Shown here piece by piece: positions 5,516 through 14,879 of a stretch of DNA of 14,879 nt (its first letter is position 1; each line of letters opens with the position of its first letter). The position numbers and the translations under genes were made by a program. The notes under the pieces are model-generated. The model worked only from the letters and a program-made list of their open reading frames with translations. It ran no database searches and was not told the origin of the DNA. Source of the stretch: an uncultured Porphyromonadaceae bacterium. Its GTDB lineage: Bacteria; Bacteroidota; Bacteroidia; Bacteroidales; Muribaculaceae. Where the stretch lies: assembly GCA_900546835.1 (NCBI GenBank), contig UREH01000043.1:1-14879 (forward strand). Reading direction: 5' to 3'.

Positions 5516-5546
5516 TTGTTTGCAAAATGCACTTTTACTATTTTTG
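5516..5546 (+). promoter_or_regulatory. Promoter of the AAA_14 ATPase gene
   Basis: TTG (5516-5518), a 20-bp spacer and TATTTTTG (5539-5546) match the Bacteroidetes vegetative promoter consensus. The start codon at 5577 lies about 25 bp past the expected transcription start. The promoter falls inside the open frame that could begin at a TTG at 5520, which argues for the ATG at 5577. Confidence 0.65.
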
Positions 5547-5576
5547 CAGAGAAATAGGCAACAGAAACCTGATTTT

Positions 5577-6785
5577 ATGGAAAACCTGATACGCACATCC
5601 CAAAGGCTTGTCAACCTGATTGACACCTCTACACACCGATATCTTTTCAACCATATAAGCTGGGACTCAAGGCAGGTTATGATAAAGGGCGCACGCGGAG
5701 TGGGGAAAACCACGATGCTACTCCAGCGGATCAAGGAACAGTTCGGGCTATCTGAGAAGGCCCTCTACGCATCATGCGACAATATGTGGTTTACTGACAA
5801 CCGGATAATTGACCTCGTGGAGTGGCATGAAGCGCACGGAGGCACACACCTGTTTCTCGACGAGATACATCTTTATGAAGGAAACTGGCACCGCGAACTG
5901 AAAAACATCTACGACAGTTTCCCGAACTACCATGTAGTGTTTACCGGGAGTTCCATAATTCACCTTGATGCCGCCCTGGCCGACCTGAGCCGGCGGTGCA
6001 TCCCGTATCGGCTCTACGGCCTTTCGTTCAGGGAATGGCTGAAATTTATGAATATTGCAGACATCGGAGCAATACCACTCGAAGAGCTACTCACACAACA
6101 TGGACAGCTAGCATGGAGTATCATCAACCGAATCGGCAACAATAAGATTCTACCGCTTTTCAATCAATATCTCGGCAAAGGTTATTATCCTTATTTCAAG
6201 ACAGATTCCAAATTAGGCGACTATTACGGTCGAGTGGAGCGCAGCGTGGACACAACCATCATGCGCGACCTGCCTGCCGCCGAACGAATCGAATACGAAA
6301 CATTATACAAGCTACGGAAACTTCTGTATATCATATCGTCGGAAGTTCCGTTCAGTCTGAACGTGCAGGCGTTGAGTCAAAAGATTCAAGTGGCGCGCAA
6401 CACGGTGGTTCGCATGTTCGGATTGCTCGACAAAGGAGCGGTGCTCCGCTCTATTCACAGCGGCTGGCACTCTCCCAAATCCATCGCAAAACCTGAAAAA
6501 GTCCTTTTTGACAATACCGATATAATGGCTGCCTTAAGCAATATGAATGAGATTGGTACGGTGCGCGAAACTTTTGTGGCATCCATGCTCGCGCCAAATC
6601 ACAAGCTCGCCGAGCCACCGGCAGGCGATCTGATGGTCGACGAGAGACTGCTTTTTGAAATAGGAGGTAAAAACAAGAATTTCAGCCAGATTGCCGACAT
6701 TCCCGATAGTTATGTCATCGCTGACGACATCGAAACGGGGCTTGGCAATAAAATACCTCTATGGCTCATGGGGTTCTTATACTGA
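5577..6785 (+). CDS. AAA_14/DUF4143-family ATPase
   Basis: A 402-residue protein from the ATG at 5577; the frame extends to a TTG at 5520, but the promoter lies there. Walker A is GARGVGKT (38-45), Walker B is HLFLDEIH (91-98), and a sensor-like VVFTGSS follows (120-126). The layout YRLYGLSFREWL (144-155) right after the AAA core is typical of AAA_14. A winged-helix-like segment (about 260-290, with SQKIQVARNTVVRMFGLLDKG) leads to the C-terminal DUF4143 region, whose FEIGGKNKNF (360-369) is a family hallmark with a PD-(D/E)xK-like appearance. Such genes are abundant and variable in Bacteroidales. Their role is unknown; links to mobile DNA or toxin-antitoxin-like functions have been suggested. 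It stands alone, with its own promoter, and is lower in GC than the flanking AraC and glycosyltransferase genes, consistent with acquisition. Confidence 0.88.
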   Translation: MENLIRTSQRLVNLIDTSTHRYLFNHISWDSRQVMIKGARGVGKTTMLLQRIKEQFGLSEKALYASCDNMWFTDNRIIDLVEWHEAHGGTHLFLDEIHLYEGNWHRELKNIYDSFPNYHVVFTGSSIIHLDAALADLSRRCIPYRLYGLSFREWLKFMNIADIGAIPLEELLTQHGQLAWSIINRIGNNKILPLFNQYLGKGYYPYFKTDSKLGDYYGRVERSVDTTIMRDLPAAERIEYETLYKLRKLLYIISSEVPFSLNVQALSQKIQVARNTVVRMFGLLDKGAVLRSIHSGWHSPKSIAKPEKVLFDNTDIMAALSNMNEIGTVRETFVASMLAPNHKLAEPPAGDLMVDERLLFEIGGKNKNFSQIADIPDSYVIADDIETGLGNKIPLWLMGFLY

Positions 6786-9243: not shown

Positions 9244-10491
9244 ATGGCAAATTTAGAAAATCGCAAGAAGCAGAATCCCAAGCTCCAGCAGTCGGAATTG
9301 AGCGACGGACGTGCCAGCCTCTACCTTGAATATTATCTCGGTAGGACTGAATCGCCCGTGCTTGACGAGGACGGAAATCAGGTGTTCTACACAGATGGAG
9401 CGATGGCAGGAAAACCGAAATACAAAATCAAACATTCCCGCAAGAAAGAAAACCTCAACCTCTACATCTGGCTTCATCCCCGAAACCAGCAGGAGCGTAT
9501 GCAGAATAAGAACACTCTCGCATTGGCTGAGAAAATCCGCTTTGAGCGTGAGCAGTCGTTTTTGGAGGACAGGGAGGGTTATCGTCTCCGCAAGGATATG
9601 GATGAGGACTTTCTCGAATTCTGCAAGGAGTTCATCAAATCCCCGTCGCTCACGAAATATACCCGTATAACGCTCAAGCATGGACTGCAAAAGTTCATGG
9701 ACTTTCTCGCAGTAACACCGAGATATTCCCTCTACAAGAAAAATCTGAAAATGACGCAGCTCACCGTTGACATGGTGGCGGCTTATGTGGAGTATCTTAA
9801 GGAGAACGGAACAGGCGATGGTCCGAAAATCTATTTTCGTATGTTCAAGCGTATGGTTACTGCTGCCGTTGACAAAGACCTCATCAAGAAAAATCCGTGC
9901 CGAGGTTTCGTGTTGAAAAATGATAACATGACTCTGCAAAAAGAGATTCTTCTGCCAGAGGAGATACAGCAGCTTGTGGCGACACATTTCGATGGCGAGA
10001 AGGGAGAGATTCACCGTGCCTTCATCTTCGGTCTATATACCGGGGTGCGTTGGTGCGACACAAGTCAGCTCACATATCGCAATGTGGATTACTCCACAAA
10101 GACGCTGCGTTTCCAACAGCAAAAGACGAAAGACCACAGCAGCCGGAGCTGGGTAATCGTTCCGTTGAACGACACACTTATCCGTCTGATTGGTGAGCCG
10201 AGCGATGACAACTTTGATGAACAAGTGTTCAAGCTGCCGCATTACAACATCTGCAACCTGTATCTTCGGAAATGGGTGAAGGAGGCAGGCCTCAAGAAGA
10301 AAATCACATGGCATTGCGCCAGGCACAGCTTCGCGGTGAATGTCCTCACCAAAGGAGCGAACATAAAAACGGTGTCAAGCCTTCTTGGGCACACCTCCAT
10401 AAAGATGACCGAGCGATACCTCCATGTCGTTGACAGCCTCAAGCAGGATGCTATCGACTCCCTTGGAGAAATCAACTATGCACCGATGTAA
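9244..10491 (+). CDS. Tyrosine recombinase / site-specific integrase
   Basis: A complete 415-residue tyrosine recombinase. The N-terminal ~100 residues form a basic arm-type DNA-binding region (residues 20-80, with RASLYLEYYLGR and LNLYIWLHPR). A SAM-like core-binding domain follows (about 120-225), and the catalytic domain runs from about 235 on. All catalytic residues are visible: R269 in TGVRW, K294 in QQKTKD, H357 and R360 in HCARHSF, H383 in LLGHTS, and the nucleophile Y392 in TERYLHV. The enzyme should therefore be active. It cuts and rejoins DNA through a 3'-phosphotyrosine bond to integrate, excise or invert a segment. It has its own promoter and a strong terminator. To the right lies AT-rich cargo, to the left the chromosome, so it is probably the integrase of the island. 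A local invertase role is the alternative. Confidence 0.95.
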   Translation: MANLENRKKQNPKLQQSELSDGRASLYLEYYLGRTESPVLDEDGNQVFYTDGAMAGKPKYKIKHSRKKENLNLYIWLHPRNQQERMQNKNTLALAEKIRFEREQSFLEDREGYRLRKDMDEDFLEFCKEFIKSPSLTKYTRITLKHGLQKFMDFLAVTPRYSLYKKNLKMTQLTVDMVAAYVEYLKENGTGDGPKIYFRMFKRMVTAAVDKDLIKKNPCRGFVLKNDNMTLQKEILLPEEIQQLVATHFDGEKGEIHRAFIFGLYTGVRWCDTSQLTYRNVDYSTKTLRFQQQKTKDHSSRSWVIVPLNDTLIRLIGEPSDDNFDEQVFKLPHYNICNLYLRKWVKEAGLKKKITWHCARHSFAVNVLTKGANIKTVSSLLGHTSIKMTERYLHVVDSLKQDAIDSLGEINYAPM

Positions 10492-10641: not shown

Positions 10642-10707
10642 ATTCGGCAAGGTATGTTTTGAGGCGCAAATCTAATTTCGTGCGCCTCAAAACATACCTT
10701 GCCGAAT
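10642..10707. repeat. Perfect 27-bp inverted repeat with 12-nt loop
   Basis: The left arm (10642-10668, beginning ATTCGGCAAGG and ending GAGGCGCA) and the right arm (10681-10707, beginning TGCGCCTC and ending TTGCCGAAT) match over all 27 positions. The spacer is aatctaatttcg. No T run follows, so it is not an ordinary terminator. Its position near a tyrosine recombinase suggests a recombination or transfer-related site, but the role is unknown. Confidence 0.85.
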
Positions 10708-10994: not shown

Positions 10995-11066
10995 AATGAT
11001 GTAATGACGTATTTATTTATGAATGTCATGATGTCATGACGTAATGATGTATTGACGTGTTGATGT
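10995..11066. repeat. Degenerate octamer repeats NATGAYGT
   Basis: Two copies (AATGATGT, AATGACGT, 10995-11010) are followed after a 16-bp gap by five head-to-tail copies (CATGATGT, CATGACGT, AATGATGT, ATTGACGT, GTTGATGT, 11027-11066). T and C tend to alternate at the sixth base. Confidence 0.65.
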
Positions 11067-11111
11067 GCTTATATATTATTGTATTGAAATATTTTAGTCT
11101 GAATGTCTGGA

Positions 11112-11280
11112 CAGATGACTGAATGATTGGTCACTCAGATGATTGACTGAATGAATGATTGAGTGATGGAATGATTGAATGACTGGGTGATTGAATGATT
11201 GGTCATTCAGATGATTGACTGAATGAATGACTGAGTGACTGAATGATTGTTCATTCAGATGATTGGTTGATTAAATGGTT
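11112..11280. repeat. TGAN-type tandem repeats with three palindromic units
   Basis: The stretch is a degenerate 4-bp-period sequence (TGAA, TGAT, TGAC, TGAG). A palindrome recurs in it: TGAATGATTGGTCACTCA (11120-11137, one mismatch), TGAATGATTGGTCATTCA (11192-11209, perfect) and TGAATGATTGTTCATTCA (11240-11257, perfect). Spacings are 72 and 48 bp, both multiples of 4 and of 24. Each is followed by AGATGATTG or GATGATTG. Confidence 0.75.
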
Positions 11281-11323
11281 TGCCCTAAAATTAAGTGGAA
11301 ATTACTCATAGTGATTTGTCACC

Positions 11324-12343
11324 CTACTTACCATTGGCTTTTGCATTTAGTTCCTTGATGGTTTCGAGATAAGCTCTCTCTACAGGGGATAATTCTCGTA
11401 CTTGGAACAATCGGTATTCACGTTCAGCTTTCTCCATAGCTTGTTGGTGACTGATAGATCCTGCTCCTTTAAGCAGAGCCTCTCCAGTCGAGGAAAGGAT
11501 GTTGTCAAGCTGTTGGACATAATCGCTCATATACATCGGTCGGCGGCGCATAGCTTGAATCTCGGCAAAATCAAAATATCCCGAAACAAGGTTGTTCAGA
11601 ATCTTTAATTCTTCCTCGCTTAGATAGTTCTTGGCAATCTTTGCATCACGTAATGTCGGATGGTCTCCTTTGAAGGATGTAAGCCCCATTAGAGGGGATT
11701 CAGCATTTGCACGGTTGAAAATAACCTCTGCCGCAGTATGACCATGCGCAGCAAAGTGGAGTTTGTTCTGGACTATCTTGAAAAATTCAATGGAAATATC
11801 AGAACGCGGGTCGTAGTCAACGGCAGTTGCATAAAGGTCAAGAACCTGGCGATACATCACTTTCTCGGAACTGCGAATGTCGCGTATGCGGTCAAGAAGC
11901 TCACGCCAGTAAGCACCGCCCCCATTGCCTTTCAACCGTTCGTCATCCATCGTGAAGCCCTTTATTATATACTCTTTCAACCTTTCCGTCGCCCATCGTC
12001 TGAAATGAGTGGCGATAACAGACCGAATCCTATATCCCAACGAAATAATCATATCAAGATTATAGAATGGAATCTCACGGGAAACTTGCCGAGTGCCTTC
12101 CTGCCGAACCTGTAAGAAATTCTTACAGGTTGCCTTCTCCGCCAATTCTCCATCCTCATAAATGTTTCGGATATGCTGGACTATGTTTGGGCGAGTTGTC
12201 TGATATAGCTCTGCCATCTGTTGTTGCGACAGCCAAACAGTATCACCTGTAAACTTAACCTCAATATGGGTTTCGCCATTCTCTCCTTGATATATGATTA
12301 TCTGATTGGTGTCCATATTTGTGATTGTATTATATATCTTCAT
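11324..12343 (-). CDS. RhuM-family protein
   Basis: A 339-residue soluble protein of the virulence RhuM family, named from a Salmonella pathogenicity-island gene; the biochemical role is unknown. The N-terminus contains a helix-turn-helix-like segment, TVWLSQQQMAELYQTTRPNIVQHI (35-58), which suggests DNA binding. The centre has IPFYNLDMIISLGYRIRS (91-108) and a family-specific stretch, FAAHGHTAAEVIFNRANAESPLMGL (197-221). The C-terminal part has FDFAEIQAMRRRPMYMSDY (257-275). Such genes often sit in restriction-modification loci and other accessory islands. Here the gene lies 81 bp downstream of the DUF4209 gene on the same strand, possibly co-transcribed. That gap contains a 7-bp hairpin (ACATTTA/TAAATGT, 12374-12392) but no T run. 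A Met at codon 10 (12316) is an alternative start. GC content is intermediate between the integrase and DUF4209 genes. Confidence 0.88.
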   Translation of the reverse strand: MKIYNTITNMDTNQIIIYQGENGETHIEVKFTGDTVWLSQQQMAELYQTTRPNIVQHIRNIYEDGELAEKATCKNFLQVRQEGTRQVSREIPFYNLDMIISLGYRIRSVIATHFRRWATERLKEYIIKGFTMDDERLKGNGGGAYWRELLDRIRDIRSSEKVMYRQVLDLYATAVDYDPRSDISIEFFKIVQNKLHFAAHGHTAAEVIFNRANAESPLMGLTSFKGDHPTLRDAKIAKNYLSEEELKILNNLVSGYFDFAEIQAMRRRPMYMSDYVQQLDNILSSTGEALLKGAGSISHQQAMEKAEREYRLFQVRELSPVERAYLETIKELNAKANGK

Positions 12344-12424: not shown

Positions 12425-14203
12425 TTAAGATTGTTGTTTCAGATTGTAGTTAACTGCCAAACGAATAATTGCGACAAATAAAAACATACAATAATGCAAT
12501 CCTACTTTTGTAATGTAATACGTATTATCATAAAATCCATGCGCTGCAGAATTCCTAATATTAAGACCAGAATCAGTCAGAATATATTTGAGGTAATCAA
12601 TATCGTCTTTTGGATATATTGTTTTAATACCCTCGGACTTTAATATATCATCCAGCAAAAACATCTGTTCCTTGCCATTTGGCAATTGTTTCATAGTTGA
12701 ATAGCCATTTAAATATAGCATATCACGCAGTATTCGCTCAATTTTGATACTTAATGTGTCTAATGGTATCGTAAAATTTATAGCCTTATGCAATGTCACT
12801 CTTTTTAGCTGAATAAAGAAATCATGAATAGGGAGTTCCACTAAATCAAAAAAACGACAGGGCATGCCATTACGTGTAGTATATACTTGTCCAAAAATAG
12901 TATTCTTAAGCAAAAAGGTTTTGACTTTATTATATGTCACAGTCTTTTCTACAATTTTGTGTAATAAAATTGTGGTAAAGGTTTCTGTAATTGGGTTTAA
13001 ATATTGCCCCATAATTCGATACTTGCTATCTTCATGAGTTTTTCCTTCTGAAACCGGAGCCGAATTATTATTTATGTCAATATTAACAGTTTGAAAACCA
13101 TCAATACTGTCCATCTGCTCTGCACACTTATCAAATATTGCAGAACATGGTATTGTCAAAAATAAATTTTGAGACAACCCAAACAAAAATGAATCAAGAT
13201 TTGCATCTCGCGCACTATTAATCATCTGGTTAACAAATGTCTCTCCGCTATCTGTATATAGTCTCTGTGAAAAACTGGGATACTGCAATTTATTTTTGAT
13301 TTTAATCAATTCTTGCTCCGCCTTATCCCTTTTCTCTATCGCTCCTGCACAATGGTACAAACTGAATATCCTTTGTAAAATGTGATGATTTTGGTGTGGG
13401 GTTACAATATTTGTTCCATCATCATCCAGTATAAAATTATACTCGTTATCAGCCAAGGCTTCTTGAAATTTCTTGATTTCAAGAGGATAACGAACACTAT
13501 CTTTCCCTATTAATTTTGAACATATTTTTATCGCGTTTTCTATTAAACGCTTTTTGAGATTAGGATTGTCAGTATTAGTTATTAAGAGTTCACAAACATC
13601 CGATATGCCATCAATGTTTTCAACCTTAAAATTCTTATTTTCAGAAACCGTAATAATATTTATGATATGAACCTTATTGATATATAAAATGTCCTTATCA
13701 TTAAGGATGTCCTTAATGGACTCATATATACTGGGATTGGGTTTGGTTTTTATTAAAAAATAAATCTCAATCAGTGAATATAGAACTTCAAATAAAGTTC
13801 CATAATCACAGATTGTATGTGTGATTTCTTTAAGGCATGAAACATTTGAATGATAAGCTTCTTCTTTTTCTTTTCCGAAAGATAACGCTAAAATGGCATA
13901 GTATCGTGACTTAAGTAAACTATTATGAGTCTCTTTAATGCGCTTATTTAAATAATCAATATACTGTGGAATAAGCGGTTTCCAGTGAGGTGATGTCACA
14001 ATACCTCGTATAGACGTAATTCTCTCAAAAGATATAAACTCGAATCTTATATGCGGTTGAGGACAGGACAAATATTCGTAATCCATACTAATCCTATCAA
14101 TTGAATCAATAGCCTCCAATCTCGCTATTAGCGAATCGTACATATCTTCAGTCGTCATCCTTAAATTGGGGTGAACAGGATTATTGTCGCAGAGTTTAAT
14201 CAT
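12425..14203 (-). CDS. DUF4209 protein with HEPN-like RNxxxHG motif
   Basis: A 592-residue, very AT-rich gene. The C-terminal region contains RNSAAHG (550-556; bases 12536-12556), the RNxxxHG motif that defines DUF4209. It also matches the R-[NDH]-x(3-5)-H active site of HEPN ribonucleases. Before it lie predicted helices (about 475-545, with IERILRDMLYLNGYSTMKQL); after it is a hydrophobic helix, VGLHYCMFLFVAIIRLAV. The larger N-terminal part (about 20-400) looks like all-helical repeat structure without a recognised motif, possibly a sensor or scaffold. The second helical region includes FLFGLSQNLFLTIPCSAIF, which is too weak to call membrane-spanning. No signal peptide is seen. The gene starts 39 bp after the DUF262-HNH gene on the same strand, so the two are probably one operon. 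RNase activity and a role in phage defence are inference; the DUF4209 assignment rests on the motif and its setting. Confidence 0.75.
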   Translation of the reverse strand: MIKLCDNNPVHPNLRMTTEDMYDSLIARLEAIDSIDRISMDYEYLSCPQPHIRFEFISFERITSIRGIVTSPHWKPLIPQYIDYLNKRIKETHNSLLKSRYYAILALSFGKEKEEAYHSNVSCLKEITHTICDYGTLFEVLYSLIEIYFLIKTKPNPSIYESIKDILNDKDILYINKVHIINIITVSENKNFKVENIDGISDVCELLITNTDNPNLKKRLIENAIKICSKLIGKDSVRYPLEIKKFQEALADNEYNFILDDDGTNIVTPHQNHHILQRIFSLYHCAGAIEKRDKAEQELIKIKNKLQYPSFSQRLYTDSGETFVNQMINSARDANLDSFLFGLSQNLFLTIPCSAIFDKCAEQMDSIDGFQTVNIDINNNSAPVSEGKTHEDSKYRIMGQYLNPITETFTTILLHKIVEKTVTYNKVKTFLLKNTIFGQVYTTRNGMPCRFFDLVELPIHDFFIQLKRVTLHKAINFTIPLDTLSIKIERILRDMLYLNGYSTMKQLPNGKEQMFLLDDILKSEGIKTIYPKDDIDYLKYILTDSGLNIRNSAAHGFYDNTYYITKVGLHYCMFLFVAIIRLAVNYNLKQQS

Positions 14204-14242
14204 GCCCTCTTATGGGAATTATATAATAACAATAAGTAATAC

Positions 14243-14879
14243 CTACTTGTTGCTCTTTGTGCGGTTACAGTGTAAGCAAAGCATTTGGCAATTATCTTTT
14301 ACGGTCTTGCCGCCTTTGCTCCACGGAATTATATGGTCTGCTTCCATCTCGCATAGCTCAAAATGCTCTTTGCAAATCGGGCATATACCATTCTGTTCCT
14401 CATATACCGCTTCTCTTATATCCTCTCCAAAGGTTCTAAGCCCTAAGTGGCGTTCATCGCCAGATAAGATATAGGGGATGATACCTTTTCTATTGGTAAC
14501 TTCACTATCCTTTAAAAGAACCGATATTTTCTTATCCAAATCAGCTTTATCTAAGGATTTATCAGCGTGATATTTTTCATATAGCGTACCCCAATCTAAT
14601 CCCTGCATTATACTCTTACGCTTAGTGATATTGAATTTACCCAAAGCCCAAGTAACTACATTTTGAAAATAGTTATATAACTCTAAAGCGTCCGCATCGC
14701 CTTGATGTTTACCCATATACTCTTTTATCTGGATTATGCCTTGTGCTGCACAAATCCACTTTAAAGCAGTCCTAAGATAATCCTGCCTTATTGGTGTACC
14801 TGTAAGCAAATGCTTTCCCCCGATACGATAAGCCGGGCAATTATTTTTACTGAATCTCTTTTTTGCGTCAGTTAAGAAT
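14243..14879 (-). CDS. DUF262-HNH endonuclease, 5'-truncated at the window edge
   Basis: The C-terminal 211 residues of a larger protein. The frame is open to the window end, so the TTG at 14809 is not the real start. The upstream codons read KKRFSKNNCPAYRIGG, followed by LTGTPIRQDYLRTALKWI. This matches the middle of DUF262 proteins, whose N-terminal half (DGQQR-type motif, NTPase) lies beyond the window. The C-terminus is an HNH nuclease with CPIC, then ADHIIPWSKGG, an Asn in KDNCQML, and CLHC: two Cys pairs holding a zinc around a beta-beta-alpha metal site. DUF262 is the GmrS domain of the GmrSD type IV restriction enzyme, which cuts glucosylated modified DNA. Fusion to HNH is a frequent defence-nuclease layout. 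It probably heads an operon with the DUF4209 gene, 39 bp downstream. Confidence 0.85.
   Translation of the reverse strand, partial: FLTDAKKRFSKNNCPAYRIGGKHLLTGTPIRQDYLRTALKWICAAQGIIQIKEYMGKHQGDADALELYNYFQNVVTWALGKFNITKRKSIMQGLDWGTLYEKYHADKSLDKADLDKKISVLLKDSEVTNRKGIIPYILSGDERHLGLRTFGEDIREAVYEEQNGICPICKEHFELCEMEADHIIPWSKGGKTVKDNCQMLCLHCNRTKSNK

Follow-up and report, generated by a model that had tools for sequence, protein, structure and literature searches.

We analysed a 14,879-nt stretch of contig UREH01000043.1 (GenBank assembly GCA_900546835.1) from an uncultured Porphyromonadaceae bacterium, hereafter the window, whose right-hand end carries on the minus strand the C-terminal part of a predicted DUF262–HNH nuclease gene followed by a complete gene of the DUF4209 family. 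On balance, we consider it somewhat probable that a small restriction-modification operon, itself part of an integrase-borne island, has its 3′ end in this region, with the HEPN-like DUF4209 protein acting as a second-line abortive effector. Under this reading the operon would run from an EcoRI-family adenine methyltransferase (MTase), expected beyond the window, through the DUF262–HNH nuclease to DUF4209, and perhaps on to a RhuM-family gene.

The nuclease fragment and its family

The nuclease gene (14243–14878, minus strand) contributes 211 C-terminal residues to the window, its N-terminal part and start lying beyond the window end. The fragment matches Pfam HNH with an E-value of 7.1e-14, as well as positions 163–372 of the 372-position PADLOC model REase_II (PDLC03418), a Type II restriction enzyme model, with an E-value of 1.6e-61. 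The HNH nuclease motif occupies fragment residues 166–211 (14246–14383, minus strand), among which Asp181-His182, Asn196, Asn205 and Lys208 are invariant across the 14 rows of the family alignment (A4). The 13 full-length homologues in A4 share 42–53% identity with the fragment over the common 211 residues, and all of them keep the DGQQR sequence of the N-terminal DUF262 along with the HNH residues. In a PDB sequence search, A4 had ten matches at E ≤0.01, every one to the HNH end.

An earlier sequence-only reading of this DNA had named the gene DUF262–HNH. The HNH half is borne out by Pfam, but DUF262 itself went undetected by Pfam in the window piece. Because both full-length homologues scanned with Pfam carry PF03235 (GmrSD_N, DUF262) in addition to HNH, we infer that the window nuclease also has a DUF262 domain. 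The C-terminal end and the HNH residues are common to nine Bacteroidales homologues, which are 38–52% identical to the fragment. Residue 1 of the fragment aligns to residue 158 in six of the nine and to residues 163–166 in the other three; therefore, about 157 N-terminal residues lie beyond the window end. One weak relative of the fragment was found in a viral contig (L037).

An EcoRI-family methyltransferase is the steady partner of the nuclease family

Inspection of the nuclease loci (L024, L025, L038–L050 and L133–L141) revealed a constant neighbour. Relatives of the 211-residue fragment occur in 58 plasmid records, and an EcoRI-family adenine MTase lies upstream of the DUF262–HNH gene in all 14 plasmid loci read, directly so in 13. 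It is directly upstream in 12 of them, with its reading frame broken in L024, and reaches the gene across the origin of the record in the thirteenth; in the fourteenth, on an Enterococcus dispar plasmid (L043), it lies further upstream, with an annotated optrA gene between MTase and nuclease. A profile of the nuclease family matched 9 of 97 Bacteroidales genomes. After exclusion of G026, which matched part of the profile only, nine full-length loci from eight genomes were left, two of them in G078. All nine have the MTase upstream, seven directly and two with one open reading frame (ORF) in between. Altogether, the MTase precedes the nuclease gene in 23 of 23 relatives, 20 times directly.

DUF4209, by contrast, was not detected by profile searches beside any of these 23 nuclease genes, within flanks of a few kilobases. 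Likewise, tblastn found none beside the 14 plasmid genes, for which the DUF4209 profile was also run on six-frame translations of stretches of 2.5–7.7 kb; the control, a locus that itself contributes to the profile (L027), was matched. Thus the MTase is the steady partner of the DUF262–HNH family and DUF4209 the variable part. The window resembles this family in nuclease identity, in the C-terminal end and in the HNH residues, and differs from the relatives read in having DUF4209 behind the nuclease. As the MTase is present in all 23 relatives, it is expected just past the window end, and judged by these relatives the window most likely holds the last part of a restriction-modification operon, of which the MTase and about 157 nuclease residues lie outside the window.

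Three Bacteroidales loci have other same-strand genes after the DUF262–HNH gene (L133, 1749–4479; L139, 4291–9435; L140, 5949–7735), which may be further add-ons of the restriction system.

The DUF4209 protein is a likely HEPN ribonuclease

The gene behind the nuclease (12425–14203, minus strand) is complete and encodes 592 residues, with a helical repeat-like N-terminal part and a C-terminal HEPN-like domain. Pfam places DUF4209 (PF13910) at residues 488–561, with an E-value of 4.8e-13 and a score of 49.4 bits, the cut-off being 22.3; the PADLOC candidate PDC-S39 matches the C-terminal part only (E 2e-8). The motif RNSAAHG at residues 550–556 (12536–12556, minus strand), comprising Arg550, Asn551, Ala554 and His555, corresponds to an HEPN active site of the R-x4-H type, within the general R-x4-6-H pattern, and agrees with the RNxxxHG motif noted earlier. 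Its arginine and histidine are present in 51 of 51 ORFs and are invariant in a 12-row alignment (A5).

A structure model of residues 386–592 (12428–13048, minus strand) has a predicted local distance difference test (pLDDT) score of 86.5 and a predicted template modelling (pTM) score of 0.84, and HEPN structures head its VIA list. The C-terminal domain is therefore modelled as an HEPN-like fold with a conserved arginine and histidine, and together with the motif this supports the HEPN-like nature proposed from the sequence. The fold search with the whole protein returned helical-repeat matches only. The DUF4209 protein is likely an HEPN ribonuclease. Another HEPN family, PF18735, had no Pfam match up to an E-value of 1; the window HEPN belongs to PF13910.

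A PDB sequence search with the alignment A3 gave four matches at E ≤1; the best, to 59 residues from the core of a retroviral integrase (E 4.6e-4), was put down to chance. Two proteins are 95% (P0002) and 90% (P0003) identical to the window DUF4209 protein. A second protein search, with the alignment A2, added nothing to the five proteins already found. The window protein had no tblastn match in plasmids or phages, nor any match in viral contigs with the alignment A1; the A2 search gave four weak viral-contig relatives (L115–L118).

Genomic neighbourhoods of DUF4209

DUF4209 is rare. It is present in 10 of 393 Bacteroidales genomes, in 6 of 395 from the order of Chryseobacterium tagetis and in 23 of 400 from the order of a Sphingobacterium metagenome-assembled genome. 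In the family to which the nearest relative of the host belongs, it occurs in 2 of 297 genomes, both times as a distant gene (L086 and L087), and neither of the two genomes of that relative's genus gave a match. The host was placed by a glycosyltransferase, which has clear relatives in two Bacteroidales genomes, G245 (58% protein identity) and G149 (53%), and points to a host that most likely belongs to the Bacteroidales.

Neighbours were counted at 47 loci, the window included, after removal of the near-duplicates L002, L009, L011 and L100, and ORFs shorter than 80 residues were ignored. We define a tight neighbour as a same-strand gene of at least 80 residues within 100 bp. All 21 tight upstream genes were scanned by Pfam, PADLOC or both, as were 13 of the 20 downstream ones, that of L092 with Pfam only. 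The upstream side is readable at 43 loci, 21 of which have a tight upstream gene; ten of these genes are of defence or toxin type, two are weak matches (L097 and L113) and nine gave no such match. These are raw counts, and several of the PADLOC families named are candidates only.

The ten cases include the DUF262–HNH nuclease of the window. L027, with an NgoPII restriction system, has the gene order HTH–C5 MTase–NgoPII–DUF4209, and in L001 PtuB of the Septu PtuAB pair stands directly upstream of DUF4209, as does HipA in L031. Locus L087 has an N6 MTase, then a DUF262 nuclease directly upstream of DUF4209. Two ORFs ahead of this MTase match Pfam ResIII and, below the cut-off, RE_endonuc, with no PADLOC match at 1e-5; a type III system is only suggested there. 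Members of Upx (L098), PDC-M62B (L102) and PDC-M54A (L108) are further PADLOC families found upstream. Paralogous TPR-HEPN genes, both in one genome, precede DUF4209 in L004 and L005 with an overlap (−4 bp); that of L004 has no PADLOC match at 1e-5.

A tight downstream gene is present at 20 of 44 loci. Among the 13 scanned, five match defence families or candidates for such: in the window the match is RhuM and in L005 it is GajA, the others being PDC-S58, PDC-S56 and, weakly, PDC-S31. Defence neighbours thus flank DUF4209 on both sides, and the restriction nucleases among the scanned genes lie upstream only.

Two further arrangements were observed. Positions 5671–12391 of L005 form a same-strand run of TPR-HEPN (LA2681), DUF4209 and the Gabija pair GajA and GajB. 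On four Hymenobacter plasmids (L119–L122), the gene immediately after each distant DUF4209 gene encodes an uncharacterised protein of ~173–194 residues, and three of these plasmids also have BREX, MmeI or HipA genes in the vicinity.

Organization of the island

The nuclease and DUF4209 genes are separated by 39 bp (14204–14242, minus strand), and their coordinates, strand and spacing agree with the earlier description of a tight same-strand pair of a DNA-nuclease-type and an HEPN-type protein in a defence context. The sole promoter pattern tried on this gap, TTG-N18-22-TANNTTTG, is absent, which is compatible with co-transcription of the two genes without demonstrating it. Behind DUF4209 by 81 bp, on the same strand, follows a RhuM-family gene (11324–12343, minus strand; Pfam PF13310, E 7e-108; PADLOC PDC-S05, E 1e-155), a possible further member of the island. 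A tyrosine integrase gene (9244–10491, plus strand) has an open frame and matches PF00589, PF13102 and PF17293. It had been described as intact and beside the pair; the frame is indeed open, but the RhuM gene and 832 bp of repeat-rich, apparently non-coding DNA between RhuM and integrase intervene.

The GC fraction rises from 0.32 in DUF4209 through 0.39 in DUF262–HNH and 0.44 in RhuM to 0.48 in the integrase, compared to 0.58 and 0.62 in two genes further left. From the low GC of the four genes and the open integrase it follows that the window stops inside an acquired island, and its right end is an acquired block of mixed make-up. The integrase is the probable mover of the island.

The interval between integrase and RhuM contains a perfect 27-bp inverted repeat with arms at 10642–10668 and 10681–10707 and a 12-base spacer, which may serve the island in recombination or regulation. 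A degenerate repeat array, spaced by 8 bases and strongly GC-skewed, lies at 10995–11297, inside the 832-bp stretch. An Rfam search gave no match. Outside the island, a second patch of lower GC holds an AAA_14 ATPase gene (5520–6785, plus strand; E 5e-25), which is the PADLOC candidate PDC-S01.

Proposed mechanism and alternatives

The present analysis provides a working model for the locus. We propose that the MTase would mark host DNA and that the DUF262–HNH nuclease would cut unmarked DNA, probably with nucleoside triphosphate hydrolysis by the DUF262 domain. The helical N-terminus of DUF4209 would sense a phage cue or the failure of the nuclease, whereupon the HEPN domain would cleave RNA and the infected cell would stop, in the manner of PrrC beside EcoprrI. 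What the data show directly is which genes are present and how they are arranged, the conservation of the motif residues, an HEPN-like fold in the structure model and the MTase linkage in relatives; an MTase in the genome of the window, nuclease and ribonuclease activity, and any functional coupling are inferred.

The main rival, which we regard as rather unlikely, is that the DUF4209 gene provides defence by itself, in response to a trigger of its own, and stands behind a restriction gene through the clustering of defence genes in islands, uncoupled from it. In its favour, a same-strand defence-type gene within the upstream 100 bp is missing from 31 of the 43 testable loci, even when the two weak matches are counted as defence-type, and PADLOC lists the family, as PDC-S39, among candidates made up of one gene. 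Moreover, contexts differ between the close relatives L027 and L090, with no gene on the same strand in the 100 bp upstream of DUF4209 in the latter. However, the recurrent place of DUF4209 directly behind unrelated nuclease systems, at gaps of 17–62 bp, and the overlaps in L004 and L005 point to co-expression at least.

A two-gene system, as proposed in the sequence-only reading, appears improbable. Here a GmrSD-like type IV DUF262–HNH protein would sense or cut foreign, perhaps modified, DNA and activate DUF4209 without any MTase. The second DUF262–DUF4209 adjacency, in L087, indicates that the two genes have met more than once. GmrSD, BrxU and SspE, all DUF262 proteins, act on or sense modified DNA according to the available text of PMC10952713, which also places the published defence system PD-T4-2 under both DUF262 and HEPN (PF18735). 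The idea that such a pair has no known precedent is therefore too strong. PD-T4-2, whose deletion in its own E. coli strain increases T4 plaquing (accessible portion of PMC9519451), is set apart from the window by its described HEPN family, PF18735 instead of PF13910, a distinction drawn from the published description. Against a dedicated pair, the MTase is upstream of all 23 nuclease genes and is also present in L087, whereas DUF4209 is beside none of the 23. By the refuting condition that the sequence-only reading had set, a generally conserved DUF262–DUF4209 pair is rejected, L087 being the only other adjacency found, and for this nuclease family the MTase-free system is the least supported reading.

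We give equally little credence to an arrangement like SspABCD–SspE, in which the host mark would be a co-signal for the nuclease and DUF4209 still a second line: GmrSD, BrxU and SspE read DNA modifications and, like the window family, join DUF262 to a His-Me type nuclease, as given in the available parts of PMC10952713 and PMC12707154, and in the window family an MTase goes with the DUF262 nuclease, which is a difference from those proteins. Against it, the PADLOC model is that of a Type II restriction enzyme, and the window family has the classical HNH domain (PF01844) instead of the DUF1524 of those proteins, which had no Pfam match up to an E-value of 1 in the nuclease part present.

Relation to known systems

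The human C6orf70 gene is now called ERMARD. DUF4209 is the bacterial counterpart of eukaryotic C6orf70 proteins, and DUF4209/C6orf70 was predicted in 2013 to be an HEPN family of restriction-related operons (Anantharaman et al., PMC3710099, in its available text). The window shares with that description the family, the predicted active HEPN site, the restriction context and a helical repeat beside HEPN. The part of PMC3710099 available to us leaves the partner nuclease unnamed, and the combinations with DUF262–HNH, NgoPII and Septu come from the present analysis. PrrC with EcoprrI combines an HEPN anticodon nuclease with type I restriction (available sections of PMC3710099 and PMC12707154). 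By analogy, DUF4209 would likewise be an HEPN ribonuclease encoded with a restriction system, and a guard logic is proposed for it; PrrC differs in having an ABC-ATPase domain, as described in those sections, where DUF4209 has a helical repeat-like part.

In the open-licence literature, to which our search was confined, we found no experimental work on DUF4209 and no paper that brings ERMARD and HEPN together; DUF4209 is named in a single paper there, and PDC-S39 appears in one, as a list entry. The MTase-linked nuclease family, if little described, and the occurrence of DUF4209 in restriction-related operons are already known. As far as these searches go, three things are new: the exact combination, the identification of the MTase, and not DUF4209, as the constant neighbour of the nuclease, and the range of unrelated systems behind which DUF4209 lies.

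The tie of a DUF262 nuclease to an MTase, set against the modification-reading GmrSD, BrxU and SspE, directly poses the question of whether such a nuclease cuts unmarked DNA or needs a mark. As a tentative possibility beyond this locus, DUF4209 might be an exchangeable RNA-cutting fuse behind unrelated DNA-cutting systems (EcoRI-family/DUF262–HNH, NgoPII, a third MTase/DUF262 system and Septu), a common abortive back-up for when DNA cutting fails. If one HEPN family indeed backs several unrelated DNA-cutting systems, guarding of the PrrC kind would amount to a general principle rather than a lone curiosity.
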